From: an uncultured Clostridia bacterium
GTDB taxonomy: Bacteria; Bacillota; Clostridia; Christensenellales; Borkfalkiaceae
Reading direction: 5' to 3'
DNA length: 16,982 nt
Assembly: GCA_947177825.1 (NCBI GenBank)
Contig: CAMWWA010000009.1
Location: 1 to 16,982 of the forward strand
Position numbers and translations under genes: made by a program. Below are positions 663-13,150 of this stretch, one piece after another; the first letter of the stretch is position 1; each line of letters opens with the position of its first letter. The notes beneath the pieces were generated by a model. That model searched no databases and was not told where the DNA came from. It saw only the letters and a list, made by a program, of their open reading frames with translations.

Positions 663-1352
663 TCAAAGTTCAACCAACTTGCCGTTATCGAAATAATAAA
701 TATTCTCTTTTTTGAATCCGTACTTTGAACCGCTAACTGCAATATGCGGTTCAAACGTAAAACATTTTACGCTGCCGAGAGGTGCTTTGTTGCCTTTTTC
801 GATATAAATTCTATCGTTTTTATCCGTTACGATAGAGTGTCCCAGATTGCCCATAAAATCTAAATTTATATAGCCGTTAGCTGTAATAAATTCGTTTGTA
901 TGTGAGTACAGTTCCTCGAAAGTCGTTTCGGGGGTAGCAACCGATAATAATTCCAAGTGTAATTTGTCTTCCATTAGCAAGCCGTTTTTCCATTCGGTGT
1001 TTCTTATTTTATTAATATCATTTACGACAACTCCGTCTTCGATAATAATCGTCCTTGCATAATCACCTCAAACTTTGCCGACTTGCGGACTTAAATCAAC
1101 CGTTATTATATCGTTTTCTTTAATAATTTTGTCCGCGGTCCGATAGTGTTTTCCCGATATGGAAAGAGTAGTTTTATCGCCCGAAAACACGAACGCGCCT
1201 ATATCCCAATACCAAAAAGAGGTCGCGCCGAGCGACAGCATTTTGCTTTCGGCTATTTGTCTTAATTCTTGCAAGCTCATACCGACTTTTATTTCGGATT
1301 TTATAAAAGCCATCGTTTGCTTTGCAATCTGCTGAACCTCAAAATTTTTCAT
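663..1352 (-). pseudogene. M24-family metallopeptidase gene interrupted by an in-frame TGA
   Basis: Read on the minus strand from ATG 1352, the frame gives a 229-residue pita-bread (M24, aminopeptidase P/methionine aminopeptidase-like) protein. It has all five metal ligands: D86 in VDLSP, D97 in GDYARTI, H172 in GNLGHSI, E201 in FEPHI and E216 in KKEN. Codon 95 is TGA (1068-1070), one base from TGG, at a site just before GDYARTI where an aromatic residue is common in the family. The frame is otherwise open, without a frameshift. Translation stopping at residue 94 would lose four of five ligands, so the product would be inactive. Upstream there is a good promoter and no Shine-Dalgarno. TGA is an ordinary stop elsewhere in the window, so a nonsense-mutation pseudogene is the simplest reading. 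A sequencing error or readthrough remains possible. Confidence 0.85.
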
Positions 1353-2228: not shown

Positions 2229-2789
2229 ATGAACGAAATTTTGACGTTTGCCGACAGGGAAGAATTCAGGAAGTGGCTTTCAGAAAACTGTAAGTCAAGC
2301 GAGGGCGTTTGGCTGTTGTTTGGAAAGAGCGGTGGTCCGAAAACTATTAAAGCGGAAGAGGCGCTTGAAGAAGCGTTGTGCTTCGGCTGGATAGACGGAC
2401 AGATGCAGAGTCTTGACGACAAAACTTACAAGAAATATTTTGCCGGGCGCAGGGCGAAAAACAAGTGGTCGGATAAAAATAAAACGTTGGTCAAGAGCCT
2501 CGAAGAGCGTGGACTTATGACCGACTTCGGCAGAGAAAAGATAGAGGAAGCAAAGAAAAACGGTCAGTGGGACGCGCCCGATTTAATGGCTCTCGGTGAG
2601 GATGCAGTTGCAGTTCTTTCCGAATTGCTTCAAGAATAAGAACCCGCAAACACCAATTTTCAAGCTATGCCGCTGTCAGTAAAGAAAACTTACTCCCGCG
2701 CATACTTCGACGCAAAGACGGACGCGGGCAAGCAAAAACGGCTTGCCTGGATAGTGGACAGGCTTAACAAAAATCTGAGACCTATGTAA
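2229..2789 (+). pseudogene. YdeI/OmpD-associated family gene interrupted by an in-frame TAA
   Basis: The frame from ATG 2229 (after GGTGGG at 2213-2218) encodes a YdeI-family protein with the family landmarks EGVWLLFGKSGG, ALCFGWIDGQ, KNKWSDKN and NGQWDAPD. Codon 137 (2637-2639) is TAA. The same frame then continues for 49 codons with the expected C-terminus (EPANTNFQAM, KKTYSRAYFDAKTDAG, RLAWIVDRLNKNLRPM) and a second stop at 2787-2789. The total would be 186 residues, a normal family length. The lost residue lies just before the conserved EPA.TNF segment; a Tyr codon there would be one base from TAA. YdeI-like proteins are small cytoplasmic proteins linked to stress or peptide resistance, with no settled biochemistry. 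A 136-residue truncated product would lack the conserved C-terminal helices. Confidence 0.85.
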
Positions 2790-2804
2790 AAAGAGGAAAG
2801 GTAT

Positions 2805-3059
2805 ATGACACAACTTACGACAATGATGAATATCGGAAAGGAGATGGCAAGCAAGCTGAAAAGCGTTGAAATAGATTGCGCCGAAAAGCTTATCGAGGTC
2901 GGCTCGAAAGAGGCGTTCTTCAGACTGAAAACCAAATATCCGCAAGTGTGTTTGGTGCATCTGTACACGCTGGAAGGGGCAATTCAAAACTTGGAATTCA
3001 ACTGCCTTTCCGAAGAAACCAAAGCAGACTTGAAAGCGTTCAGCGACAGCTTGAAATAG
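2805..3059 (+). CDS. TfoX C-terminal-type helix-hairpin-helix protein
   Basis: The protein has 84 residues. It matches the stand-alone TfoX/Sxy C-terminal domain: LTTMMNIGKEMASKL (the hairpin with the conserved NIG), then IDCAEKLIEVGSKEAF, then VCLVHLYTLEGAIQNL, then LSEETKADLKAF. In proteobacteria TfoX/Sxy is a competence activator. The small Firmicutes versions have no established role, so I name only the domain. ATG 2805 is preceded by AGAGGAAAGG. It lies 15 bases after the restored end of the YdeI frame, so the EFR1-YdeI-TfoX-DUF3795 genes read as one former operon. No damage is seen. Confidence 0.8.
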   Translation: MTQLTTMMNIGKEMASKLKSVEIDCAEKLIEVGSKEAFFRLKTKYPQVCLVHLYTLEGAIQNLEFNCLSEETKADLKAFSDSLK

Positions 3060-3073
3060 GAGGTGGATTACCA

Positions 3074-3178
3074 ATGAAAAAACTTATTGCATATTGCGGG
3101 CTCGGTTGCGAGAAGTGCGACGCGCGGACGGCTACGCTCAACAATGCCGAAGCGTTGGGCAACCTTAAGAATAAGTAA
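3074..3178 (+). pseudogene. Truncated DUF3795 gene (first 34 codons only)
   Basis: ATG 3074 has a strong AGGAGG at 3059-3064 and begins MKKLIAYCGLGCEKCDAR, the signature N-terminus of DUF3795 proteins, whose YCGL.C..CDA cysteines likely bind metal. Family members run well beyond 100 residues with further Cys pairs. Here the frame diverges after about residue 28 and stops at TAA 3176-3178. No remainder of the domain follows, so the 3' part was probably deleted. The following bases hold a hairpin and then the tail of an unrelated regulator, which marks the deletion or rearrangement joint. Confidence 0.75.
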
Positions 3179-3205
3179 TAAAAATGCTTAGACTTATTCT
3201 CTATT
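3168..3205 (+). terminator. AT-rich hairpin at the DUF3795 truncation point
   Basis: AGAATAAGT (3168-3176) pairs perfectly with ACTTATTCT (3192-3200) around a 15-nt loop; CTATTT follows. Its 3' arm and tail resemble those of the hairpin after the tRNA-Leu fragment (CTTATTTTCTATT against CTTATTCTCTATT). It may be a weak terminator. Confidence 0.4.
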
Positions 3206-3257
3206 TAACTGGGCAAAAGCTCTCGGCTGCACAATGGAAGATTTACTGAAAGAATAA
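3192..3257 (+). pseudogene. C-terminal remnant of a Cro/CI-type HTH regulator
   Basis: Between the stop at 3189-3191 and TAA 3255-3257 one frame reads YSLFNWAKALGCTMEDLLKE. That matches the final helices of XRE-family repressors (…IAKALGC..EDLL). There is no start codon with a binding site and no recognition helix, so only the tail survives. It sits directly after the truncated DUF3795 gene and supports a rearrangement here. Confidence 0.55.
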
Positions 3258-3331
3258 AATTGTAGAATTAAGTCACAAACGAGTCAAAATCATAGTCTTA
3301 TCAAAATAATAGGGTGTTAAGGGAGATACAA

Positions 3332-4834
3332 ATGAAGCCCGTTAATTTATACGAATTTTCCAAAACGTTCTTTTTGTCTGAAAATCCTTTATCAGTTTAT
3401 GAAAAATTTAATTCTCAACGCAACAAAAGTATACAAATAAAGAGTAGAGAAATAGAGACTATTCAGAAATGTATTTCTCTACTTTATGAACTTGTCGAAT
3501 TAGAGAATTGGGACGGATTCTATTACTCGTTTTCTATTCCGCAAATATCCAAAGAATTTGATTTGCTGAAATTGGGCGATGATAAAGTCTTGAATTTAGA
3601 GTTAAAAAGCGAATACACTTCCGACGAGAAATTATTAAAACAACTGGTGCGCAATAACTATTACTTATCACACTTAGGAAAAGAAATAATTGAAATCGTT
3701 TACGTGGCGGACAAAAATGCATTTTACCTTTTGAAGGGAGATAATCTTGTCGATATAGACGTTACCGCCGTTGCCGAAATTATAAACGGAATAGGCGGTT
3801 TTTACGAAGAAGATATAGAAGCTTTGTTCAAACCTGCGCAATTTCTAGTGTCGCCTATAAATACGCCCGAAAAATTTGTCAGCGGCAATTATTTTCTGAC
3901 AGACCATCAGGAAACCATAAGGAACGCAATAATAGAGGATAGGGGGAGCGGAAGCGGCTCGTCTAACTTTTATCAGGTTACGGGCGGCGCAGGAACGGGA
4001 AAAACTCTCTTAATATATGACATTGCCAAAAACCTTGCACGGACGAAAAAGATTTGTGTCATTCATTGTGCGTATCTGGCGGACGGACACATATATCTTA
4101 ACGAGCATTTAAATAACGTCACCATTGTTTCGGTAAAGGATACTTATGGTATAAACTTCGGAGATTACGACGGATTTGTAATTGACGAAGCTCACCGTCT
4201 CCGCCCTGCGCAGTTATCCCTTATCTGCGAAAAGGTAACAGCTTTAAATAAGTTTTGCGTGTTCGGAGGGGACGGGGAACAGTGTTTATCAAAGGCTGAA
4301 GTAAAAGACAATATCAGCGAGAAAATAAATAATTTAGAGGGCTGTAAACACTTTAAGTTAACTAACAAAATAAGAACAAATCCCGAATTGGCGGATTTTA
4401 TCCATCTGTTGAGGAAAATCAACGACCCGGTCATGACTAAGTCCTTTCCGAACGTAAAAATTATCTATGCGGATACGTACGAATACGCAAACGTTTTAAT
4501 AGAAAAATACAGCAAGAAGGGCTATAAGTACATAAGTTATACTCAGTCAGCTTATTACAGTCACAACATAGACAAAATACAGTCAAGCGATAACACGCAT
4601 AAGGTAGTGGGGCAGGAATTCGATAATGTCCTGATGGTTATCAACGAAAGCTTCGCGTATCTTGACGACGGCAGGTTGGGCGCTTACGAACATCCCGTAC
4701 CTGATTATCTATTTGCGCAATTACTATATCAGGGATTAACGCGTGTTAGAGAAAAATTGATTATTATAGTTTTGAATAATAAAACCGTATTTGAAAAACT
4801 GATGGGGGCTATTAAAAATGCCACGAAAGACTGA
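3332..4834 (+). CDS. PD-(D/E)XK nuclease fused to SF1/DUF2075-type DNA/RNA helicase
   Basis: The predicted protein has 500 residues. The N-terminal part (about 60-140) carries a restriction-endonuclease-like core: D77 in KEFDLLK, E90-L-K92 in LNLELKSE and a downstream Q104 in LLKQLVRNNYYL, the usual PD-(D/E)XK arrangement. From about 185 an SF1 helicase of the DUF2075 type follows. It shows Walker A GGAGTGKT (218-225), Walker B VIDEAH (283-288), NKIRTNPEL (345-353), HKVVGQEFDNVLMVI (423-437) and the arginine-finger motif QGLTRVREKLIII (467-479). Such proteins probably translocate on and cut nucleic acid; no member I know of is assigned a precise function. ATG 3332 follows AAGGGAG, so it is preferred to the GTG at 3314. 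It overlaps the Nudix gene by 17 bases. It is more AT-rich than the genes after 6350, which suggests acquisition. There are no signal peptide or membrane segments. Confidence 0.85.
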   Translation: MKPVNLYEFSKTFFLSENPLSVYEKFNSQRNKSIQIKSREIETIQKCISLLYELVELENWDGFYYSFSIPQISKEFDLLKLGDDKVLNLELKSEYTSDEKLLKQLVRNNYYLSHLGKEIIEIVYVADKNAFYLLKGDNLVDIDVTAVAEIINGIGGFYEEDIEALFKPAQFLVSPINTPEKFVSGNYFLTDHQETIRNAIIEDRGSGSGSSNFYQVTGGAGTGKTLLIYDIAKNLARTKKICVIHCAYLADGHIYLNEHLNNVTIVSVKDTYGINFGDYDGFVIDEAHRLRPAQLSLICEKVTALNKFCVFGGDGEQCLSKAEVKDNISEKINNLEGCKHFKLTNKIRTNPELADFIHLLRKINDPVMTKSFPNVKIIYADTYEYANVLIEKYSKKGYKYISYTQSAYYSHNIDKIQSSDNTHKVVGQEFDNVLMVINESFAYLDDGRLGAYEHPVPDYLFAQLLYQGLTRVREKLIIIVLNNKTVFEKLMGAIKNATKD

Positions 4835-5243
4835 CACGAACGTAGTTGAAGTTGTTGCCGCGTTGATATGGAATAAGGACAAGTTTTTGATTTGCCAAAG
4901 ACCTGCAAAGAAGGCGAGAGGGCTGTTGTGGGAATTTGTCGGAGGCAAAGTTGAAGAGGGCGAAACGAAAGAGCAAGCGCTTATCCGCGAATGTCAGGAA
5001 GAGCTTGCAATTACGGTTGAGCCGCACGATGTATTTACGGAAGTAACGCATGAATATCCCGATATAACCGTACATTTGACATTGTTTAATTGCACTATAT
5101 CGCGTGGACAACCGCAGCTATTAGAGCATAATGCACTTGAGTGGATTAACGCAAAAGAAATAGCAAATTACAATTTCTGTCCTGCCGACGTTGAAATTTT
5201 AAAGAGAATAAAAGAATATGTTGACTTTAAGATTAGGCGATAA
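4818..5243 (+). CDS. NudG/MutT-like Nudix nucleoside triphosphate pyrophosphohydrolase
   Basis: The protein has 141 residues with a Nudix box from G43 to I65: GGKVEEGE, then R57-E58-C59-Q60-E61-E62-L63-A64-I65. The catalytic REx2EE core is intact; the usual Gly near the end is Ala64. QRP.....LWEFVGGKVE before the box and FCPADVEILKRI at the end are typical of the MutT/NudG group, which hydrolyse oxidised or modified (d)NTPs to the monophosphate. NudG prefers modified pyrimidine nucleotides such as 5-hydroxy- or 5-methyl-dCTP; whether this copy does is inference. ATG 4818 lies inside the helicase gene and its own stop lies inside the next gene, so the three are translationally coupled. That coupling argues for a shared job rather than general housekeeping. 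Confidence 0.9.
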   Translation: MPRKTDTNVVEVVAALIWNKDKFLICQRPAKKARGLLWEFVGGKVEEGETKEQALIRECQEELAITVEPHDVFTEVTHEYPDITVHLTLFNCTISRGQPQLLEHNALEWINAKEIANYNFCPADVEILKRIKEYVDFKIRR

Positions 5244-5889
5244 AACACTGCAAAAAAGTTATGTTGGGATGATTAATGAAACGATAGGCACTAACTATAA
5301 GAATTTATTAAGGTGTACTGTTGATTTAGAACAATTTGATGTACCAAAAGTCATTGCGTGGTTTGTTTATATGGACGGTAGCGCACATGGTTACCCTGAT
5401 GGTTGGCAATGGAAAAATACTCTCTCATCCGACGGGAATACAATCATAGAAGAACACATAAGTTCCGTAAAGGAAACACTTAAAGAAAGGCAAATTAAAG
5501 AAGGCTATAATCCGTATAGGCTTTGTTTTCAAAGAGATTACATAAACAACAGGAATGGATATTGGTGTAAGTTCGTAGGAGTATTTCGGTTTTCAAGGTT
5601 TTTAAGAGCGGGATTAGATAAATTTGAATATGTCAAAGTGCTTGACGAATTTACAGTTGGATGTAAGGGAGATGGATATAATCCAAGACTGAATAGCAAA
5701 AATGATTTTTTGGTAGATGCGCCCTCTTATAAAGTGCCAATTGAGAAGATGCTATTTTCGGACAGCGTATATAGATTATTGAAAAAAGGAGGCATTGAAA
5801 AATCTGGTGATTTGCTCGAATTAGGTATTGGAGTTGATGGACCAATAGCTACAGAAATCAGGCAAAAATTGTACGAGTATTTTCACTAA
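5218..5889 (+). CDS. Uncharacterised protein, third gene of the nuclease-helicase operon
   Basis: I do not recognise this 223-residue protein. It is soluble, without signal peptide or membrane segment, and rich in aromatics. Visible landmarks are VIAWFVYMDGS followed by GYPDGWQWKN and DGNTIIEEHI (about 45-80), a YNPYRLCFQRDY segment (about 98-109), and GYWCKFVGVFRFSRFL (about 114-129) followed by YVKVLDEF. The F-x-G-V-F strand resembles, by eye only, small beta domains that read nucleic acids in restriction systems. The C-terminal 45 residues look helical. ATG 5218 overlaps the Nudix gene by 26 bases and has only a weak purine-rich AAAGAGA upstream, so it is probably translated by coupling. 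The gene is AT-rich like the helicase. It ends 21 bases before the operon terminator. Confidence 0.75.
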   Translation: MLTLRLGDKTLQKSYVGMINETIGTNYKNLLRCTVDLEQFDVPKVIAWFVYMDGSAHGYPDGWQWKNTLSSDGNTIIEEHISSVKETLKERQIKEGYNPYRLCFQRDYINNRNGYWCKFVGVFRFSRFLRAGLDKFEYVKVLDEFTVGCKGDGYNPRLNSKNDFLVDAPSYKVPIEKMLFSDSVYRLLKKGGIEKSGDLLELGIGVDGPIATEIRQKLYEYFH

Positions 5890-5910
5890 TTTCTAATAGA
5901 GATAAGTTAT

Positions 5911-5950
5911 AACCCAGTCCGGCGGAGGAATCCGTCGGGCTGGGTTTATG
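5911..5950 (+). terminator. Terminator of the nuclease-helicase/Nudix operon
   Basis: AACCCAGTCCGGCGG (5911-5925) pairs with CCGTCGGGCTGGGTT (5932-5946) over 15 positions, two of them G-T wobbles, around a 6-nt loop. The tail is TTATGTT, rather poor in T, but the stem is very stable. It sits 21 bases after the last stop codon, so the three-gene unit ends here. Confidence 0.75.
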
Positions 5951-6294
5951 TTAAAAACTTTGGGGAGTAATTTGGACCGGAAGTACCCGAAAATTGGGGA
6001 GTTTCGGGAATGAAAATTCCGTTCATTGGAGTTTCGGGGAACTGTAATATCAGCGCCATATTACGGGCTGTATTTGGTTTTTGGCAGGGTATTTCCGCAT
6101 ATTGCAAAAACACCTCGCCGGGGTTCGGATTCGGGGAGTTTGTCCCTGAATTCCGGGGATTTTCCGTCGTGTAATCAACCGAAAATCGGGTGCTAAAAGT
6201 TGCTCTAAAACCGCTTATCTCAACATACCTCAAAGGACGTTTTTGGGGAATTGAACCACCGGGTCTGCCTTAAAAACTTTTGAGCGCACATAAA
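5951..6294. other. Gene-free stretch with short G-rich repeats
   Basis: No convincing gene is visible. A minus-strand open frame (5946-6233) is low in complexity and has no binding site. The + strand repeats a motif close to TTSGGGGAGTTT: around 5960-5969, 5994-6004, 6026-6034 (with two bases fewer) and 6130-6141. Two of the copies extend into AGTTTCGGG. A small inverted repeat, GGAAT with ATTCC, lies near 6008-6020. The repeats could be protein or RNA-structure sites, or the debris of an older element. Confidence 0.5.
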
Positions 6295-6323
6295 TTGCAA
6301 TTCGGGTTAAAAACTGCTATACT
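6295..6323 (+). promoter_or_regulatory. Promoter of the SDR epimerase gene
   Basis: TTGCAA (6295-6300), 17-bp spacer, TATACT (6318-6323) with extended -10 TGC. Transcription should start near 6330, leaving a leader of about 20 bases with GCGGGAG ahead of ATG 6352. Confidence 0.7.
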
Positions 6324-6351
6324 TGTTGTAAAGTAAAGCGGGAGTGAAAAA

Positions 6352-7251
6352 ATGAAAATTTTAGTTACGGGCGGCACGGTTTTCGTAAGCAAATACATAG
6401 CGGAGCATTTCTCCGCAAACGGGCACGAAGTTTACGTTTTAAACCGCAACACAAAGCCCCAGTTGCCCGCGGTCAAGCTCATTCAATGCGACCGCAAGGC
6501 GATAGACGGGCAGCTCAAAGGTCTGCATTTCGATACGGTTATAGACGTGACCGCCTATAACGCCGCCGACGTAAACACGTTGCTCGACAGCCTTGAAAGC
6601 TTTGATAACTACGTAATGATAAGCTCGAGCGCGGTATATCCCGAATCACTTGCAATGCCTTTTAAGGAAGGCGATAAGTGCGGCGCGAACAAATTCTGGG
6701 GCGATTACGGCACTGATAAAATAGCGGCTGAAAACGCTCTTATTAAGAGAGTCCCGACCGCGTATATCATCAGGCCGCCCTATTTGTACGGTGAGTACAA
6801 CAACGTTTACCGCGAGGCGTTTGTGTTCGACTGCGCCGAAAGGGACGCAACCTTTTACCTGCCGAAAGACGGCTCTATGCCCTTGCAATTTTTCCACGTT
6901 GAGGACCTGTGCAGATTTATTGAACGCCTACTTGCGCAAAAGCCCGGACAAAGAATATTCAACGTCGGCAATGCGCCCGTAACGGTTAAAGCGTGGGTGG
7001 AGTATTGCTATTCTGCCGCAGGCAAAACGCCGCAATTTGCATACGTTACGGACGGTACGGAGCAGCGCAACTATTTTCCGTTTTACAACTATGCTTACGT
7101 GCTCGATACCGCCGCGCAGAAAGAAATAATGCCCGGACTGTTACCGTTGAAAGACGGATTGAGGCGGGCTTATGAATGGTACAAAGAAAACCGCGGCAGC
7201 GTAAAGCCAAAAAATTATCTGCAATATATTCACAGCCGCTTCGAAAGTTAA
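6352..7251 (+). CDS. NAD-dependent epimerase/dehydratase family protein (SDR)
   Basis: This is a cytoplasmic Rossmann-fold enzyme of 299 residues. The N-terminal nucleotide-binding segment KILVTGGTVFV (2-12) departs from the usual GxxGxxG: the third glycine is replaced, as in atypical SDRs related to the CSP41 type. The catalytic residues are in place, with SSSAVYP (91-97) and the Tyr-x-x-x-Lys pair Y119/K123 in DYGTDKIAAE. IIRPPYLYGE (about 138-147) and FFHVEDLCRFI (about 185-195) are typical of sugar-nucleotide epimerases. The substrate cannot be told; a nucleotide-sugar or similar carbonyl is likely. GCGGGAG precedes ATG 6352 and a clear promoter lies upstream. It is monocistronic, ending at a hairpin. 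From this gene onward composition is host-like. Confidence 0.85.
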   Translation: MKILVTGGTVFVSKYIAEHFSANGHEVYVLNRNTKPQLPAVKLIQCDRKAIDGQLKGLHFDTVIDVTAYNAADVNTLLDSLESFDNYVMISSSAVYPESLAMPFKEGDKCGANKFWGDYGTDKIAAENALIKRVPTAYIIRPPYLYGEYNNVYREAFVFDCAERDATFYLPKDGSMPLQFFHVEDLCRFIERLLAQKPGQRIFNVGNAPVTVKAWVEYCYSAAGKTPQFAYVTDGTEQRNYFPFYNYAYVLDTAAQKEIMPGLLPLKDGLRRAYEWYKENRGSVKPKNYLQYIHSRFES

Positions 7252-7265
7252 GGAGCGGCTATTTA
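7234..7265 (+). terminator. Hairpin overlapping the SDR stop codon
   Basis: AGCCGCT (7234-7240) pairs with AGCGGCT (7254-7260); CTT and AAG can extend the stem inward. The TAA stop lies in the loop region, and ATTTAAAT follows in place of a full T-tract. It is a plausible weak terminator. Confidence 0.45.
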
Positions 7266-7363
7266 AATATAAGTTTTGCATGTCAAAAACAGCAAAAAAG
7301 TGTTAAGGAGGACGGCACGATAAAAAATTTTTTGACAAAATACGACAAAGCAAACGAAATGCA

Positions 7364-7392
7364 TTGACAATGCCTGTTGTTACCCATAAAAT
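7364..7392 (+). promoter_or_regulatory. Promoter of the lipoprotein gene
   Basis: TTGACA (7364-7369), exactly 17 bp, TAAAAT (7387-7392). The start should be near 7399, giving a leader of about 48 bases ending in GAAGAAGGAGG. The rest of 7261-7446 holds nothing else I can support. Confidence 0.75.
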
Positions 7393-7446
7393 TTCATTTA
7401 TCACAAATTATCCGCCGGCGGGAAGCGGGCGAAGAAGGAGGATAGA

Positions 7447-9051
7447 TTGAAGGTAAAAGGTAAGACAAGCGCGCTTATTGCGGCGTGTGCCGGAATATTT
7501 GCGGGCGCCTTTGTAAGCGGTTGCGCGGATATGAAAGCCACTCCGCCGCACGAGCATACTTACAACGAAAGCGAATGGTTGCACGACGATGCGGGGCACT
7601 GGCGAGGCGCCGTGTGTGGACACAGGGAAACAAAGAATTACGGCGAACACGTTTACGACGGAGCCGCGGACGCGGACTGCAACGTGTGCGGCAGATTGAG
7701 AAAAATTGAAGAAATAAAATACCCCGCGGAAAGCAACGGAGAGAAGCCCGAAGAAGTAAAGGGCGCATCCGACGAGAAAGCCGAGGGGTTTATTATTGGC
7801 AAAAATACGGACGGTCTGATAGTGGAGGGAATAAGCGCGGAATATGAGCTGAGCACGGAGAGAAGGGCGCTGAATTTCGATGCTTTGGAATACGCCGTTT
7901 ATCTTTCCGAAAACGGTGCGAAAAGCGAAGAAGTTCCGCCCGAATATTACGAAACTACGGTATATTACGGCGGTAACAAGGTTTTTTCGCCGCAGGAGCT
8001 GACTGACGACGGGCAGTATACGGTGAGTATAAAACTGGTTGGCGCGGTATATGCTGAGGGTGAAAATACGGATGCGGACGACCTTTCCGTCCGTATAGAA
8101 TTTAAAGTTAAAAACGGCGTTAAATCTTTCAGTCTGACGGAAGGCAGAACCGGACAGGTATCTTCCTTAAACGATAAAATGAGCGCGACCTGGAAGTTTG
8201 AAGCGGTGCGCGCGAACGGGGATAAGTTTACTTTTGACGGAAGCGACGCGGAGCTGGTGCCGCCCGATACCGAAACGGTGGGCACTCGCACGACGACGGT
8301 GAAATACGCCGGGATAGTCAAGAGGATAGAATACACGGTTAATCCCGTGCCCGGGATAGTGGACGGCGGTGTGGAAATAACCGCGAAAAGCGGCGCCGAC
8401 ATAGAAACAGACTTGAATTTCGTACGGATAAGCACGGACGATTTCGACGTGGAATATTCGGTGAATGCAGGCTATGATTATTCGGTAAAGACAGTGCTCG
8501 TTTGCAATGGCGAAGAGACAGAGAGCTTAGAGCTGGAAACGGGGGAAAGCGTTCATCACGTGACCGTGCGCGTGACTTTTACTTACACGGTGGAGGGCGA
8601 AACGATAACCAAAGTTTATCCGCAGTCGTTCGAAATAACGGTAAGGAAAAAGCCGCAGAATATAAATCTGCCGCACGTATACGGCGGCGCGGAAATAATG
8701 AGCGGCGACGGGGCGGTGCGCCTGAACGCACAAGACGGTTTTACCGCAAGCGTAAACGACGGGGCGCTGGAGATAAGAAACAGCAAAGAAGAGTACGGGC
8801 TGATTTATACGGGCTTGGTTATAGACGTAGAAAAGCCGGCAACCGTTAAGCTGAATATTGCCGTGGCGGATGGCGCGTATTGCGGCGTTACGGTAGACGG
8901 CGATGACCTCGGCGAAGGACAGGATTTAGAAGGCGAACAAGAGCTGACTTTCGTCTTTGCAGAAAGCGGAGAAAATACAATCTATATACTGGCAAATAAC
9001 GAGTTTGATTTGATTATAATTAAGGGCGTCGAGATTATATACGGGGAGTAA
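7447..9051 (+). CDS. Secreted lipoprotein with HxH/CxxC module and beta-rich repeats
   Basis: The protein has 534 residues. TTG 7447 is the start because AAGGAGG (7434-7440) lies six bases upstream. A basic N-terminus, a hydrophobic stretch and the lipobox V23-S24-G25-C26 mark a type II signal peptide, so the mature protein is probably anchored to the membrane outer face. Residues 35-85 hold a module of His and Cys pairs (HEHTY, DDAGHW, AVCGH, EHVYD, DCNVCG), common in surface proteins of anaerobic Clostridia and a possible metal site. The remainder (about 110-535) is acidic and beta-rich, like Ig-type domains (EFKVKNG, TYTVEGETITKVYP), and ends in a jelly-roll-like domain (YGGAEIM to IIYGE), possibly carbohydrate-binding. 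No catalytic motif is seen. Its stop touches the stop of mnmA on the other strand with no spacer and no obvious terminator. Confidence 0.8.
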   Translation: MKVKGKTSALIAACAGIFAGAFVSGCADMKATPPHEHTYNESEWLHDDAGHWRGAVCGHRETKNYGEHVYDGAADADCNVCGRLRKIEEIKYPAESNGEKPEEVKGASDEKAEGFIIGKNTDGLIVEGISAEYELSTERRALNFDALEYAVYLSENGAKSEEVPPEYYETTVYYGGNKVFSPQELTDDGQYTVSIKLVGAVYAEGENTDADDLSVRIEFKVKNGVKSFSLTEGRTGQVSSLNDKMSATWKFEAVRANGDKFTFDGSDAELVPPDTETVGTRTTTVKYAGIVKRIEYTVNPVPGIVDGGVEITAKSGADIETDLNFVRISTDDFDVEYSVNAGYDYSVKTVLVCNGEETESLELETGESVHHVTVRVTFTYTVEGETITKVYPQSFEITVRKKPQNINLPHVYGGAEIMSGDGAVRLNAQDGFTASVNDGALEIRNSKEEYGLIYTGLVIDVEKPATVKLNIAVADGAYCGVTVDGDDLGEGQDLEGEQELTFVFAESGENTIYILANNEFDLIIIKGVEIIYGE

Positions 9052-10128
9052 TCAGTATTCCACTTTTTCGATAACGCCGCCGCCCAGGCAACGTGTGGAG
9101 TCGTAAAACACCGCGTACTGTCCCTCGGTCACGGCGCGCTGCTTTTCGGCAAACACCACGCGCACGCGGTTGCCTTCGGGCACGATGCGCACCTTCTGCT
9201 CGCCCTGGCGGTAGCGGAATTTCGCCGTACATTCGATGGGGGAAGCGGGCGCGTCGACGCCTATCCAGTTGAGTCCCGACACCTCGCACGAACGCGAATA
9301 CAGCGGACTTTCGTCGCCGTGCGACACGTACAGAACGTTGTTCTGCAAATCCTTTTTCACGACGAACCATCTGCCGTCCTCGCCGCTCTTTCCGCCTATG
9401 TTCACGCCCCTGCGCTGACCTATGGTGTAGTGCATAAGTCCTACGTGTTCGCCCACTTCCTCGCCGCTAAGCGTGAGTATTTTACCGGGCTTGGCGGGCA
9501 GATATTCCATAAGGAATTTACGGAAATTGCGCTCGCCGATAAAGCATATCCCCGTGGAATCCTTCTTTTCCGCGGTGGCAAGCCCGTTGGCGACGGCGAT
9601 TTTGCGCACCTCTTCCTTGGGCAGGTTTGCAAGGGGGAACAGCACTTTTTCAAGCTGCGGCTGGGTTACCTGGTTTAAAAAATAGGTCTGGTCTTTGCCC
9701 CGGTCCGCCGCCTTCAAAAGGTAGTGCCTGCCGCCTTCGGAGTGGTCTATGCCGCAGTAGTGTCCCGTGGCGATATAGTCCGCGCCAAGCGAAAGCGCGT
9801 ACTCGCGGAAGGGACCGAACTTGATTTCACGGTTGCACAGAACGTCGGGGTTGGGAGTTCTGCCCGCGGCGTATTCGTCGAGGAAATGCTTAAACACTCT
9901 CTCCTGATACTGTCTGGCAAAGTTCACGCTGTAATAGGGAATATCCAGCAGCGAACATACCCTGCGCACGTCGGCAAAGTCGCCCTCGGCGGTGCACGTG
10001 CCGTTCGCGTCGTCCTCTTCCCAGTTCAGCATAAAAAGCCCTATTACGTTGTAGCCCTGCTCTTTTAAAAGCAGCGCCGCCACGGAGCTGTCAACTCCGC
10101 CGCTCATTCCCACGACCACGGTTTTCAT
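9052..10128 (-). CDS. mnmA: tRNA-specific 2-thiouridylase MnmA
   Basis: The protein has 358 residues from ATG 10128. MnmA activates U34 of tRNA(Lys, Glu, Gln) with ATP and adds sulfur from a persulfide relay, in the cytoplasm. Visible landmarks are the PP-loop SGGVDSSVAA near the N-terminus, GLFMLNWEED, the NPDVLCNREIKF segment with the first catalytic Cys, ATGHYCG, KDQTYFL, the second Cys in STGICFIGERNFRKFL, and GQRRGVNIGG. The C-terminal beta domain ends LGGGVIEKVEY. A longer frame could begin at a TTG (10165-10167), but that codon lies in the -35 box, so ATG is preferred. There is no Shine-Dalgarno; the -10 box ends 10 bases before the ATG. The gene is convergent with the lipoprotein gene and divergent from DUF4250. 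Confidence 0.97.
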   Translation of the reverse strand: MKTVVVGMSGGVDSSVAALLLKEQGYNVIGLFMLNWEEDDANGTCTAEGDFADVRRVCSLLDIPYYSVNFARQYQERVFKHFLDEYAAGRTPNPDVLCNREIKFGPFREYALSLGADYIATGHYCGIDHSEGGRHYLLKAADRGKDQTYFLNQVTQPQLEKVLFPLANLPKEEVRKIAVANGLATAEKKDSTGICFIGERNFRKFLMEYLPAKPGKILTLSGEEVGEHVGLMHYTIGQRRGVNIGGKSGEDGRWFVVKKDLQNNVLYVSHGDESPLYSRSCEVSGLNWIGVDAPASPIECTAKFRYRQGEQKVRIVPEGNRVRVVFAEKQRAVTEGQYAVFYDSTRCLGGGVIEKVEY

Positions 10129-10411: not shown

Positions 10412-11536
10412 ATGGAAAGTGTCGAAGAGAAATTTTTGCGGTACGTGCGCGTGGATACGCCGAGCGATGAGGACAACTTTGATAATACGCCCTCGACCGA
10501 GTGCCAGAAAAATCTTGCCGGTATGCTGTGCAGTGAGCTGAAAGCGCTTGGCTTGCAGGCGGAGGTTACGGAAAACGCTTACGTCTATTCTCATATCCCC
10601 GCCAACTGCAAAACGCAGTATTCGATAGGCTTTATCGCGCATCTCGATACGGTGGACAAGCCCAGCGGTGTGGGCGTTAAACCCGTGGTGCGCGGCGATA
10701 TAATAACTTCGGACGGCACTACCGTGCTGGGTGCGGACGACAAGGCGGGCGTTGCCGAAATTATGGCGCTTGCCGAATATCTGGTTACGCACCCCGAATT
10801 CAGGCACGGAAAAATCGGCATAGCCTTTACCCCCGACGAGGAGATAGGACACGGCGCCAAGCTGTTCGACGTAAAAAAATTCGGCTGCGATTTTGCATAC
10901 ACCGTGGACGGCGAGGAGCTGGGCGAAATCTCGTACGAAACGTTCAACGGCGCGTGTTTCGATTTGGAAATTACGGGCGTGAATATTCACCCCGGACAAG
11001 CCAAGGACAAAATGATAAACGCGGTCACCGTTGCAAACGAATTTATTTGCGCGCTGCCCGCAAACGAGCGCCCCGAAACGACAGAGGGCAGAGAGGGCTA
11101 TTATTTTATTCCCGAGATAAGCGGCGGTGTGGAAAAGTGCGCCGTGCACGGCATTATCCGTGACCACGACAGAGCGAAGTTCGAAGAGCGCAAGGCGTTC
11201 GTCGAAAGTCTTGTGTATAAGCTTAATGAAAAGTACGGCGGCAGGATATCGCTTAAAATGCGCGACCAGTATTATAACTGCGCGGAGGTAATAACGCCGC
11301 ATATTCACCTTGTGGAAAACGCAAAGCGCGCAATGGAGGCGGAGGGAGTCATGCCGCTTATATTCCCCATAAGGGGCGGCACGGACGGTTCGTCGCTGTC
11401 GTTTATGGGCTTGCCCTGCCCCAATATATGCACGGGCGGACAAAACGCGCACGGGCTTAACGAGTTCGTTTCGGTGCAGGCAATGCACAAGGTTGTGGAA
11501 ATTCTTAAGGGTATAGTCGCCGCCTATAGTAAATAA
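10412..11536 (+). CDS. pepT: Peptidase T (tripeptide aminopeptidase, M20B), shortened form
   Basis: This is a cytoplasmic di-zinc peptidase releasing the N-terminal residue from tripeptides. It has 374 residues. Motifs in order are IAHLDT (first zinc His/Asp), LGADDKAG (bridging Asp), FTPDEEIG (catalytic Glu and zinc Glu), YTVDGEELGE, GVNIHPG, IRDHDR, and near the end GGTDGSSLSFMGLPCPN with ICTGGQNAHGLNEFV (last zinc His). Typical PepT is about 405-410 residues. Here the segment between VKP and TSDGTTVLGADDKAG is about seven residues instead of nearly forty. All metal ligands survive, so activity is expected. AAGGAG (10397-10402) precedes ATG 10412. It is the second gene of the DUF4250 unit. 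Confidence 0.93.
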   Translation: MESVEEKFLRYVRVDTPSDEDNFDNTPSTECQKNLAGMLCSELKALGLQAEVTENAYVYSHIPANCKTQYSIGFIAHLDTVDKPSGVGVKPVVRGDIITSDGTTVLGADDKAGVAEIMALAEYLVTHPEFRHGKIGIAFTPDEEIGHGAKLFDVKKFGCDFAYTVDGEELGEISYETFNGACFDLEITGVNIHPGQAKDKMINAVTVANEFICALPANERPETTEGREGYYFIPEISGGVEKCAVHGIIRDHDRAKFEERKAFVESLVYKLNEKYGGRISLKMRDQYYNCAEVITPHIHLVENAKRAMEAEGVMPLIFPIRGGTDGSSLSFMGLPCPNICTGGQNAHGLNEFVSVQAMHKVVEILKGIVAAYSK

Positions 11537-11551
11537 TAAGAATATAGACAA

Positions 11552-11592
11552 AGCCGCGGCTTGCATTTTGCTTCCGCCGCGGCTATAATAAA
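11552..11592 (+). terminator. GC-rich hairpin after pepT, overlapping the tRNA-Arg promoter
   Basis: AGCCGCGG (11552-11559) pairs perfectly with CCGCGGCT (11577-11584) around a 17-nt loop. No T-tract follows (ATAATAAAAA), so termination may be weak. The loop contains the TTGCAT -35 box of the tRNA gene and the 3' arm abuts its -10 box. Confidence 0.5.
11561..11589 (+). promoter_or_regulatory. tRNA-Arg promoter
   Basis: TTGCAT (11561-11566), 17-bp spacer, TATAAT (11584-11589). Eight bases separate the -10 from the first tRNA base, so the primary transcript carries almost no 5' leader for RNase P to remove. Confidence 0.7.
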
Positions 11593-11597
11593 AATAC

Positions 11598-11673
11598 GTG
11601 CCCGTGGTGGAATTGGATACCATAAAAGCCTCCGACGCTTTCGGTCCGGGTTCGAGCCCCGGCGGACACACCA
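11598..11673 (+). tRNA. tRNA-Arg(CCG)
   Basis: The gene is 76 bases long with encoded CCA. Acceptor GTGCCCG pairs with CGGACAC except for a C4/A69 mismatch. The D-stem is GTGG/CCAT with one G-T pair. The anticodon stem AAAGC/GCTTT encloses loop CTCCGAC, anticodon CCG, which reads CGG codons. The variable loop is CGGT, and T-stem CCGGG/CCCGG encloses TTCGAGC. Discriminator is A. The D-arm sequence is not of the common AGCTCAG type. It is transcribed alone between its own promoter and a strong terminator. Confidence 0.93.
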
Positions 11674-11678
11674 TAACG

Positions 11679-11712
11679 GCGCCGCGCGTTGCAAACGCGC
11701 GGCGCTTTCCTT
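11679..11712 (+). terminator. tRNA-Arg terminator
   Basis: GCGCCGCGCGT (11679-11689) pairs perfectly with ACGCGCGGCGC (11695-11705), 11 bp with a 5-nt loop, followed by TTTCCTT. It starts six bases after the CCA end. Confidence 0.85.
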
Positions 11713-11727
11713 ATCCCTAAAAAAATC

Positions 11728-11739
11728 AATACGCGTATT
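11728..11739. promoter_or_regulatory. Upstream palindrome, candidate MarR operator 1
   Basis: AATACGCGTATT is a perfect 12-bp palindrome ending four bases before the marR -35 box. It shares the ACGCGT core with the larger palindrome downstream; their centres are 52 bp apart, close to five helical turns. Confidence 0.5.
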
Positions 11740-11743
11740 TTAG

Positions 11744-11772
11744 TTGACAAAATCCGCACAATAACATACAAT
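11744..11772 (+). promoter_or_regulatory. marR-degV promoter
   Basis: TTGACA (11744-11749), 17-bp spacer, TACAAT (11767-11772). It is flanked on both sides by palindromes with an ACGCGT core, an arrangement suited to autorepression. Confidence 0.75.
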
Positions 11773-11776
11773 AGCC

Positions 11777-11794
11777 TTGTTGACGCGTCAACAA
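11777..11794. promoter_or_regulatory. 18-bp perfect palindrome, candidate MarR operator 2
   Basis: TTGTTGACGCGTCAACAA covers the expected transcription start, four bases after the -10 box. Length and symmetry fit a MarR dimer site. Binding here would block the promoter, so the regulator encoded 22 bases downstream probably represses its own operon. Confidence 0.7.
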
Positions 11795-11815
11795 ATTAAA
11801 AAGAGAGGAAAAATT

Positions 11816-12274
11816 ATGGACAGATTCAGCACGTTCACCGTTCTTGTAAACAGAATCGTGCGCAATATTCACAAAATAAAGGTGGAGGAAATGTCGAGGT
11901 TCGGTCTGAAAGGCACGCACGTATCCTGCCTGTACTACCTTTACAGGGAGGGCAAGCCCATTACGGCAAGCGAGCTTACGGTCATCTGCGACGAGGACAA
12001 GGCGGCGATTTCGCGCGCGGTGGACTACCTCAGCAGGGAGGGCTACGTCGTCTGCGAGGGCACGGCGCTTAAAAAGTACAAGAGCCCCGTCGTGCTCACG
12101 CAAAAGGGCATCGAGGTCAGCAAGTCGGTTGCGAACAGGGTGGACAGCATTCTTGCCGCCGCAAGCGAGGGTTTGAGCGACGAGGACAGAGCGGTTTTTT
12201 ATAAGGGGCTGGATTTGATTTCGGGCAACTTACAGAAAATCTGCGACGGAAAGGAGGAGTGCGGCGTTGGTTAA
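11816..12274 (+). CDS. MarR-family transcriptional regulator
   Basis: The protein has 152 residues. It has the MarR plan: an N-terminal dimer helix (FTVLVNRIVRNIHKI), a winged helix from about 38 to 100 with GTHVSCLYYLYREGKPITASEL, recognition helix DKAAISRAVDYLSREGYV, wing around KKYKSPVVLT, then C-terminal dimerisation helices. ATG 11816 follows AGAGAGG; an upstream TTG would fall in the operator palindrome and is rejected. The stop overlaps the degV start by 8 bases. The ligand is unknown. Because the partner gene is a DegV-type fatty-acid-binding protein, a FabT-like role in lipid sensing is possible, but that rests on context only. Confidence 0.9.
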   Translation: MDRFSTFTVLVNRIVRNIHKIKVEEMSRFGLKGTHVSCLYYLYREGKPITASELTVICDEDKAAISRAVDYLSREGYVVCEGTALKKYKSPVVLTQKGIEVSKSVANRVDSILAAASEGLSDEDRAVFYKGLDLISGNLQKICDGKEECGVG

Positions 12275-13109
12275 AATTTTGGTAGACACCGCTTCGGATA
12301 TCGATTTGACCGAGGCGCAGAAGACGGGCGTGGAGCTTATTCCCATGAAGATAACCATCGGGGAAGAGGAGTTCCTGGACGGCATAAATCTTTCGCACAG
12401 ACAGTTTTTCGAAAAGCTTATCGAGAGCGCGGAGCTTCCGCACACCAGCCAGATTAACCCCTTTCAGTACGAGGAAGAGTTTGAAAAGCTCACCGCGGAC
12501 GGAAGCGAGGTGGTTGCGATAGTGCTTTCTTCCAGGCTTTCGGGCACTTACGCCGGCGCGGTGCAGGCTGCCGAAAAGTTCGGCGGCAAGGTGCACGTCG
12601 TAGACAGTATGAACGCAAGTCTGGGCGAGCGCATATTATGCCAGCACGCCGTTGCGCTCAGGGACGCGGGCAAAAGCGCAAAGGATATTGCCGCGGAGCT
12701 TGACAGAGTCAAGAATAATATAAACTTGCTTGCCGTGCTGGATACGCTGGTATACCTTAAAAAGGGCGGCAGAATTTCCGCCGTGACCGCGTTTGCGGGC
12801 GAAGTACTTTCCATTAAACCCGTGGTAGGAGTTATCGACGGCGAGGTCAAGCTTGTCGGCAAGGCGATAGGCTCCAAAAAGAGTAACAACCTTTTAAACA
12901 AGCTGGCAGCCGAAAAGGGTATCGATTTTTCTATGCCCTACGGCGTTATGTATTCGGGGCTGGACGACAGTATGCTTAAAAAGTACGTCGCGGACAGCGG
13001 CGCGCTGTGGCAGGGGCATACCGACAATATTCCTTCGTATATGATAGGCAGCACCATCGGCACGCACATAGGTCCGGGCGCGATAGGCGTTGCGTTTTTC
13101 TCGAAATAA
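12267..13109 (+). CDS. DegV family fatty-acid-binding protein (FakB-like)
   Basis: The protein has 280 residues. The start is TTG 12267, with AAGGAGG (12251-12257) nine bases upstream inside marR. DegV proteins bind a fatty acid in a buried pocket; some (FakB) present it to the kinase FakA to make acyl-phosphate for phospholipid synthesis. Landmarks are ILVDTASDI at the N-terminus, the pocket residues HTSQINP (T60, S61), SSRLSGTY (88-95), VVDSMNASLG, and LVYLKKGGRI followed by LSIKPVVGVIDGEV. The C-terminus GTHIGPGAIGVAFF carries the conserved His and Gly residues. No fakA is nearby. It is co-transcribed with marR and ends at a strong terminator. Confidence 0.93.
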   Translation: MVKILVDTASDIDLTEAQKTGVELIPMKITIGEEEFLDGINLSHRQFFEKLIESAELPHTSQINPFQYEEEFEKLTADGSEVVAIVLSSRLSGTYAGAVQAAEKFGGKVHVVDSMNASLGERILCQHAVALRDAGKSAKDIAAELDRVKNNINLLAVLDTLVYLKKGGRISAVTAFAGEVLSIKPVVGVIDGEVKLVGKAIGSKKSNNLLNKLAAEKGIDFSMPYGVMYSGLDDSMLKKYVADSGALWQGHTDNIPSYMIGSTIGTHIGPGAIGVAFFSK

Positions 13110-13110
13110 T

Positions 13111-13147
13111 AAAAGCCCCGCGGCGTTTCGCCGCGGGGCCTTTTTTT
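13111..13147. terminator. Bidirectional terminator between degV and the histidine kinase gene
   Basis: GCCCCGCGGC (13115-13124) pairs perfectly with GCCGCGGGGC (13130-13139), followed by CTTTTTTT on the + strand. On the minus strand the same stem is followed by TTTTATTATT. It therefore serves both convergent genes. Confidence 0.9.
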
Positions 13148-13150
13148 ATT

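Follow-up and report, generated by a model that had tools for sequence, protein, structure and literature searches.

An operon pairing an Nhi/AbiO-family nuclease-helicase with a Nudix hydrolase and a separate SRA protein, a candidate modification-dependent anti-phage system in an uncultured Clostridia bacterium

Do three overlapping genes of an uncultured Clostridia bacterium work together against phages and, if so, against which kind of DNA? The genes lie in a stretch of 16,982 nucleotides, called the window hereafter, from a 1.34-Mb assembly (210 contigs, 82.6% complete). A preliminary description had read them as a nuclease-helicase, a Nudix enzyme and an unrecognised protein, overlapping by 17 bases (genes 1 and 2) and 26 bases (genes 2 and 3). 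Our analysis confirmed these open reading frames and overlaps, all on the forward strand. Gene 1 is counted from the ATG at 3332, a GTG at 3314 being a possible alternative start. The features are as follows.

3332..4834, + strand: gene 1, Nhi/AbiO nuclease-helicase, 500 aa (PADLOC AbiO and Nhi; model pLDDT 90.7)
3443..3706, + strand: PD-(D/E)XK-like nuclease core, gene 1 residues 38-125, with D77, E90 and K92 (invariant residues; element order in the model)
3890..4813, + strand: SF1 helicase core, gene 1 residues 187-494
4818..5243, + strand: gene 2, NudG-like Nudix hydrolase of PDC-S07, 141 aa (Pfam, PADLOC and PDB matches)
5218..5889, + strand: gene 3, stand-alone SRA putative reader with alphaCTD-like tail, 223 aa (Pfam, PADLOC; model pLDDT 88.7)
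5218..5673, + strand: SRA domain, gene 3 residues 1-152, with pocket residues W65, N67 and E78
5710..5886, + strand: RNA-polymerase-alphaCTD-like domain, gene 3 residues 165-223
5911..5946, + strand: terminator-like hairpin at the operon end (16-bp stem, -31.9 kcal/mol, z -5.4)

The single terminator proposed for the unit agrees with this hairpin, which folds with lower energy than every one of 200 shuffles and is missing from the output of a consensus terminator scan. The operon had also been thought AT-richer than its surroundings. This holds towards the right, where GC content rises from 0.37-0.40 in the operon to 0.47-0.56 between 6 and 16.5 kb, but not towards the start of the window, whose initial 1.5 kb are about as AT-rich (GC 0.35-0.39). 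The supposed tRNA integration scar nearby found no support: the only tRNA gene found in the window is a tRNA-Arg (11598-11673) lying 5.7 kb from the operon, and a repeat search of 2600-7000 reported no repeat pair flanking the genes. In an empty-site comparison, the epimerase that flanks the operon matched in none of four same-genus genomes at E 1e-30. A truncated gene of 34 residues immediately precedes the operon at 3074-3178. It resembles the beginning of a DUF3795 gene, covering positions 1-25 of the 83 in that Pfam profile at 20.2 bits, slightly below the cut-off of 22.6, and suggests that the left edge of the operon is a recombination break point. Further away, an M24 metallopeptidase gene (663-1352, reverse strand) is apparently split over two reading frames, of which 663-980 covers positions 115-204 of Peptidase_M24 and 1068-1352 resembles, by eye, the front half. 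By eye, GGGGAGTTT/TTCGGGGA-like words recur at 5963-6240, in the gap that separates the operon from the epimerase gene; the repeat search reported no long repeat family in 2600-7000, this interval included.

By its sequence, gene 1 is a member of the Nhi/AbiO family, a known anti-phage family. The PADLOC models of AbiO (7.7e-147, residues 1-493 of 500) and Nhi (1.9e-142, residues 1-492 of 500) cover nearly all of it. In keeping with the PD-(D/E)XK nuclease and SF1 helicase named at the outset, D77, E90, K92, the Walker A residues G221-T222-G223-K224, D285/E286 and R471 are invariant in all 36 aligned rows, and the modelled nuclease core has the expected order of helix, three strands, helix and strand. 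The core is named by motif and element order, with no fold match behind the name, and absence of a match from a fold listing is no evidence for a different fold. Neither PLD nor DUF3427 matched gene 1 at E up to 1. The available passages of PMC12904381 describe known Nhi as a single-gene system with a trigger linked to phage SSB, and report DNA nicking and unwinding.

The view of gene 2 as a NudG-like Nudix enzyme is well founded. It matches Pfam NUDIX_4 (4.6e-25) and the candidate-defence Nudix family PDC-S07 of PADLOC (8.6e-48, residues 9-133). G43, E49, R57-E58 and E61-E62 of the Nudix box and P122-A123-D124 of the PAD motif do not vary among the 24 relatives chosen; Ala64 replaces the Nudix box glycine. 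Among structures, PDB 2rrk, a CTP pyrophosphohydrolase that we take to be E. coli NudG (Orf135), is matched at 8.1e-22 and 1mut, presumably E. coli MutT, at 1.1e-14. MutT carries Asn where the PAD motif of NudG has Asp. A plain MutT acting on 8-oxo-dGTP is less likely, because 2rrk outscores 1mut and its C-terminal PAD motif, Asp included, aligns with that of gene 2; what counts against dismissing it is that the best PDB match (5x1x, 8.2e-27) is titled 'Mutator mutT protein'. Gene 2 thus shares Nudix box and PAD motif with NudG, but scores 103.8 bits against the NCBI equivalog for pyrimidine (deoxy)nucleoside triphosphate diphosphatase, below its cut-off of 156. For NudG on 5-methyl-dCTP, the accessible parts of two papers give kcat/Km values of 3x10^5 (PMC3744803) and 1.3x10^6 per M per s (PMC5158307).

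Gene 3, which the preliminary description could not place, does not encode a protein of an unknown family: a Pfam SRA match (6.2e-10), the alignment of its pocket and its fold rule this out. PADLOC mREase_II matches it at 1.4e-6. In a fold search with the model, the SRA fold is nearest to 5hmC readers, residues 1-152 aligning to residues 178-318 of AbaSI, and residues 165-223 in the C-terminal part have an alphaCTD-like fold. W65, N67 and E78, conserved in relatives, correspond in the alignment to Trp215, Asn217 and Glu228 of PvuRts1I, for which a role in the pocket is proposed in the portion of PMC4157451 available to us. Fold and pocket, as modelled, support gene 3 as a modified-base reader.

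Most relatives of gene 3 belong to assemblies of uncultured Clostridia. The distribution is patchy, since 13 of 297 genomes of the order match (the window's included) and none of the nine other genomes of the genus does; five of the 12 other matches in the order are weak, at E 1e-7 or more (G188, G009, G118, G064, G235). SRA searches of viral contigs, plasmids and phages gave no match. Neither Nudix nor Nhi was found within 1.5 kb of the SRA loci of the order (L020-L032), one of which has an ADP-ribosylglycohydrolase. At 17 named gene 3 loci, Nhi is absent from all and Nudix from 15; the two others (L009, L010) have Nudix with an S41 helicase. An ADP-ribosylglycohydrolase stands beside six of the 17 (L003, L004, L005, L007, L008 and, fused, L006). 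Among nine neighbour proteins scanned, those of BREX (BrxL, PglZ) adjoin L012, and AbiEi/AbiEii adjoin L009. A small helix-turn-helix-looking gene was noticed by eye near L003, L007, L008 and L016. T4-like phages ADP-ribosylate alpha-CTD, which the ADP-ribosylglycohydrolase neighbours and the alphaCTD-like tail bring to mind.

If the three genes form one system, they might be expected together elsewhere. Co-occurrence was judged by phmmer, with few query proteins, within the sequence around each locus. No complete trio was found at another locus with readable DNA. The check proposed for the trio, that it should recur across distant genomes, came out negative: neither Nudix nor SRA occurs at any of the 20 further Nhi loci scanned, which are 30-44% identical, some with flanks of only 1.5 kb and two partial (L085, L211). 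With the window's genome included in each count, Nhi matches in five of 151 genomes of the family, three of 156 of the order and seven of 398 of the phylum (two of these weak and partial). It also matches 81 plasmid and 4 phage records, and six of these 85 were read.

The Nudix family is found mostly elsewhere, yet it repeatedly meets helicases of this kind. Near relatives of gene 2 (E up to 1e-40) occur in 69 of 297 genomes of the order, at 70 places including the window's. About 5 kb on each side, where the contig allows, was checked for the helicases tested and for SRA, and two of the 69 other loci adjoin such a helicase (L120, S41; L137, SauUSI-like). In the phylum, a threshold of E 1e-20 gives matches in 77 of 398 genomes. 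Of the 29 loci read, two adjoin a SauUSI-like gene, namely L052 and L047 (its extended version is L077); a 34-bit SauUSI-like fragment at L051 is left out of the count. Because so few adjoin such a helicase in order and phylum alike, most near Nudix genes are probably ordinary pool-cleaning genes. On viral contigs, two of three Nudix loci (L083, L084) adjoin a gene combining PLD, helicase and DUF3427 and the third (L215) does not; no such helicase is found at the plasmid locus L076, and phages searched for Nudix at E 1e-15 gave no match.

Two kinds of helicase make up these encounters. In Elusimicrobiaceae (L009), SRA, a PDC-S41 helicase and Nudix form one run in which the end of S41 is the start of Nudix; the fourth gene of the run (11208-14171) encodes a metallophosphatase fused to a STAND NTPase-like region. 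At L010, S41 is matched over 35 residues at the edge of the contig, and between this match and a convergent SRA gene lie Nudix and a 1591-aa helicase protein (4678-9453, reverse strand), which matches DpdF-type and GajB/UvrD-type helicase profiles. L120 has S41 and Nudix without SRA. The idea that S41-Nudix has a conserved fourth partner was dropped, since L009 and L120 differ in their large downstream proteins. S41 occurs in 18 of 297 genomes with 22 matches (two genes each matched in two pieces), of which one has Nudix within 1.5 kb (L184, the same place as L120) and several others lie at contig ends; viral contigs gave no S41 match. A SauUSI-like enzyme accompanies Nudix at L077, L052, L083, L084, L137 and a Lactiplantibacillus plasmid (L222), the one case among six read of 20 plasmid records with SauUSI-like genes. 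This plasmid, NZ_CP028230.1 of Lactiplantibacillus plantarum, carries a restriction-like gene run: a PDC-S07 Nudix gene overlaps a SauUSI-like mREase_IV gene and is followed by a MazG-like gene and a GIY-YIG-SLFN helicase, beyond which lie more genes, one with DUF2357/PDDEXK_7.

Closer to the window, three indirect signs point to a linkage of Nhi with Nudix or SRA, judged for Nhi relatives of 64-89% identity from protein entries. Three pairs of proteins agree in the length of their longest contig: Nhi P0146 with SRA P0014 (31,840 bases), Nhi P0149 with Nudix P0032 (19,482 bases) and Nhi P0150 with Nudix P0093 (37,859 bases). On the full lists, such matches have chance means of 0.15 and 0.72 and are not significant by themselves; with contigs above 10 kb and the seven closest Nhi, a restriction chosen after the matches were seen, the means are 0.001 and 0.005. 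The C-terminal tail of gene 2 is encoded by the 26 bases common to gene 3, and it is nearly identical in the three closest Nudix proteins (P0026-P0028) among 119 listed of 7970 matched, which suggests that these share the SRA overlap. The Nudix tree groups the window's protein with P0026-P0028 and P0032 (support 96/97), on a short alignment whose bootstrap is not settled; P0093 falls outside this clade. Judging from identities of 89% for P0146 vs 53% for P0014, the reader may have been swapped or may evolve fast.

The reading to which we give slightly better than even chances is a three-gene, modification-dependent (type IV-like) anti-phage system with recognition and cutting split between proteins. 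Gene 3 would scan DNA and take up a flipped-out, C5-modified cytosine in the SRA pocket predicted by the model; 5hmC, plain or glycosylated, is the likeliest such base. Directly or through its alphaCTD-like tail, it would then recruit or license Nhi on the marked DNA, and Nhi, by analogy with its family, would unwind and nick the phage genome. The Nudix enzyme, by analogy with NudG, would hydrolyse C5-modified dCTP from the phage pool or from recycled phage DNA, presumably keeping host DNA free of the mark read by gene 3. The early proposal that the nuclease-helicase attacks modified DNA with the third protein as reader fits the anti-phage family of gene 1 and the fold and pocket of gene 3; the cutting and the recruitment we infer. 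In favour of the three-gene system count the Nhi identity, the invariant catalytic residues, the SRA pocket, the PAD motif, the overlaps, the recurrence of Nudix with S41 and SauUSI-like helicases and the close-lineage linkage. Against it count the missing second trio, the Nhi loci without partners, the description of Nhi as single-gene, the SRA loci without Nudix or Nhi (six of them beside an ADP-ribosylglycohydrolase), the rarity of such helicases beside near Nudix genes and the position of P0093. In addition, early draining of 5hm-dCTP by the Nudix enzyme would spare the phage from the reader.

Of the rivals, two carry the most weight: an islet of independent modules and a Nudix enzyme that drains the phage pool. 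In the former, Nhi is self-contained and Nudix-SRA is a second, independent module on the same transcript. This fits the absence of Nudix and SRA from all 20 more distant Nhi loci and of Nhi from all 17 SRA relatives, as well as P0026-P0028, which keep the SRA-overlap tail but differ at their N-termini, so that the Nudix-SRA pair may stand behind other junctions. Yet both gene junctions of the operon overlap, favouring coupled translation, L009 joins SRA and Nudix to a nuclease-helicase of another family, and a Nudix-SRA pair without a nuclease has no obvious effector; we consider two independent modules rather unlikely. In the latter, Nudix is a weapon that drains phage 5hm-dCTP in a pincer: a phage keeping the mark is cut by SRA-Nhi, and one losing it falls to ordinary restriction. 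The NudG-like motif, the reported activity of NudG on a C5-modified dCTP (accessible parts of PMC3744803 and PMC5158307), the repeated pairing with SauUSI-like enzymes and the second, MazG-like pyrophosphohydrolase at L222 agree with it. But 67 of the 69 near Nudix loci of the order have neither tested helicases nor SRA in the sequence checked, which looks like a general cleaning role, and we regard the pincer as quite improbable.

A further possibility, to which we attach very little probability, makes gene 3 a modified-DNA-binding transcription regulator of the operon or of the phage instead of a nuclease adaptor, with Nudix as a general pool cleaner. The alphaCTD-like fold would suit a regulator, as would the six of 17 SRA relatives with ADP-ribosylglycohydrolase instead of a nuclease and the helix-turn-helix-looking genes seen by eye at four loci. 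However, gene 3 sits last in the operon, not first, and it is hard to see what a reader of modified cytosine would do at promoters of the host itself.

The three-gene system could be one case of a modular immunity, a generalisation that we hold as doubtful. SF1 nuclease-helicases, Nhi in the window and PDC-S41 in Elusimicrobiota, would be exchangeable and would become modification-dependent through an SRA-alphaCTD adaptor that can be detached. A Nudix enzyme devoted to the task would guard against autoimmunity by destroying C5-modified dCTP set free from degraded phage DNA, which would keep the host from ever writing the mark into itself; sets of Nudix, helicase and reader would on this view make up a single type of system that keeps recurring, SauUSI-like enzymes being its fused version. 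Should the three-gene reading hold, a separate reader re-aims a general anti-phage nuclease-helicase at base-modified phages, and the Nudix genes that recur beside SauUSI-like and SLFN-type helicases gain a concrete, testable role as guards of the nucleotide pool of the host. Gene 3 would then also provide, in natural form, a stand-alone reader of the 5hmC type that could serve as a probe.

How does the operon compare with known systems? It shares with Nhi/AbiO the make-up of nuclease and SF1 helicase, but is not a single gene: gene 1 overlaps a Nudix gene that itself overlaps an SRA gene. It shares with PvuRts1I and AbaSI the SRA fold and the pocket Trp, Asn and Glu, but gene 3 starts at the SRA domain, without their N-terminal nuclease half, and carries an alphaCTD-like domain, so that any cutter is a separate protein. 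CMoRE/PD-T4-3, according to the available part of PMC12923530, is likewise a modified-cytosine-dependent anti-phage restriction (5hmC/5ghmC), but a single protein with a GIY-YIG nuclease and without helicase or Nudix. The PDC-S41 (SLFN-g3) helicase with PDC-S07 at L009 is the nearest match to the trio, from which it differs in helicase family, gene order and its fourth gene. SauUSI has the same parts list of nuclease, helicase, SRA reader and, adjoining, a small Nudix (relative L077; PMC7641849 and PMC7913695, as far as their text was available). There, a PLD nuclease, a ResIII/DEAD-type motor and SRA form one polypeptide, whereas the operon has an SF1 PD-(D/E)XK-like enzyme and keeps SRA on its own chain.

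The preliminary description knew of no system with this trio. Judged by titles, starts of abstracts and passages, searches of the open-licence literature listed no description of it either, but SauUSI with Nudix is in print: available passages note MutT homologues adjoining SauUSI homologues in 2020 (PMC7641849) and predict DUF3427 to bind modified DNA (PMC7159879), and the idea of Nudix plus reader plus helicase is therefore partly anticipated. Overall, the parts of the operon are of known kinds, and the split SRA-Nhi form appears to be new.
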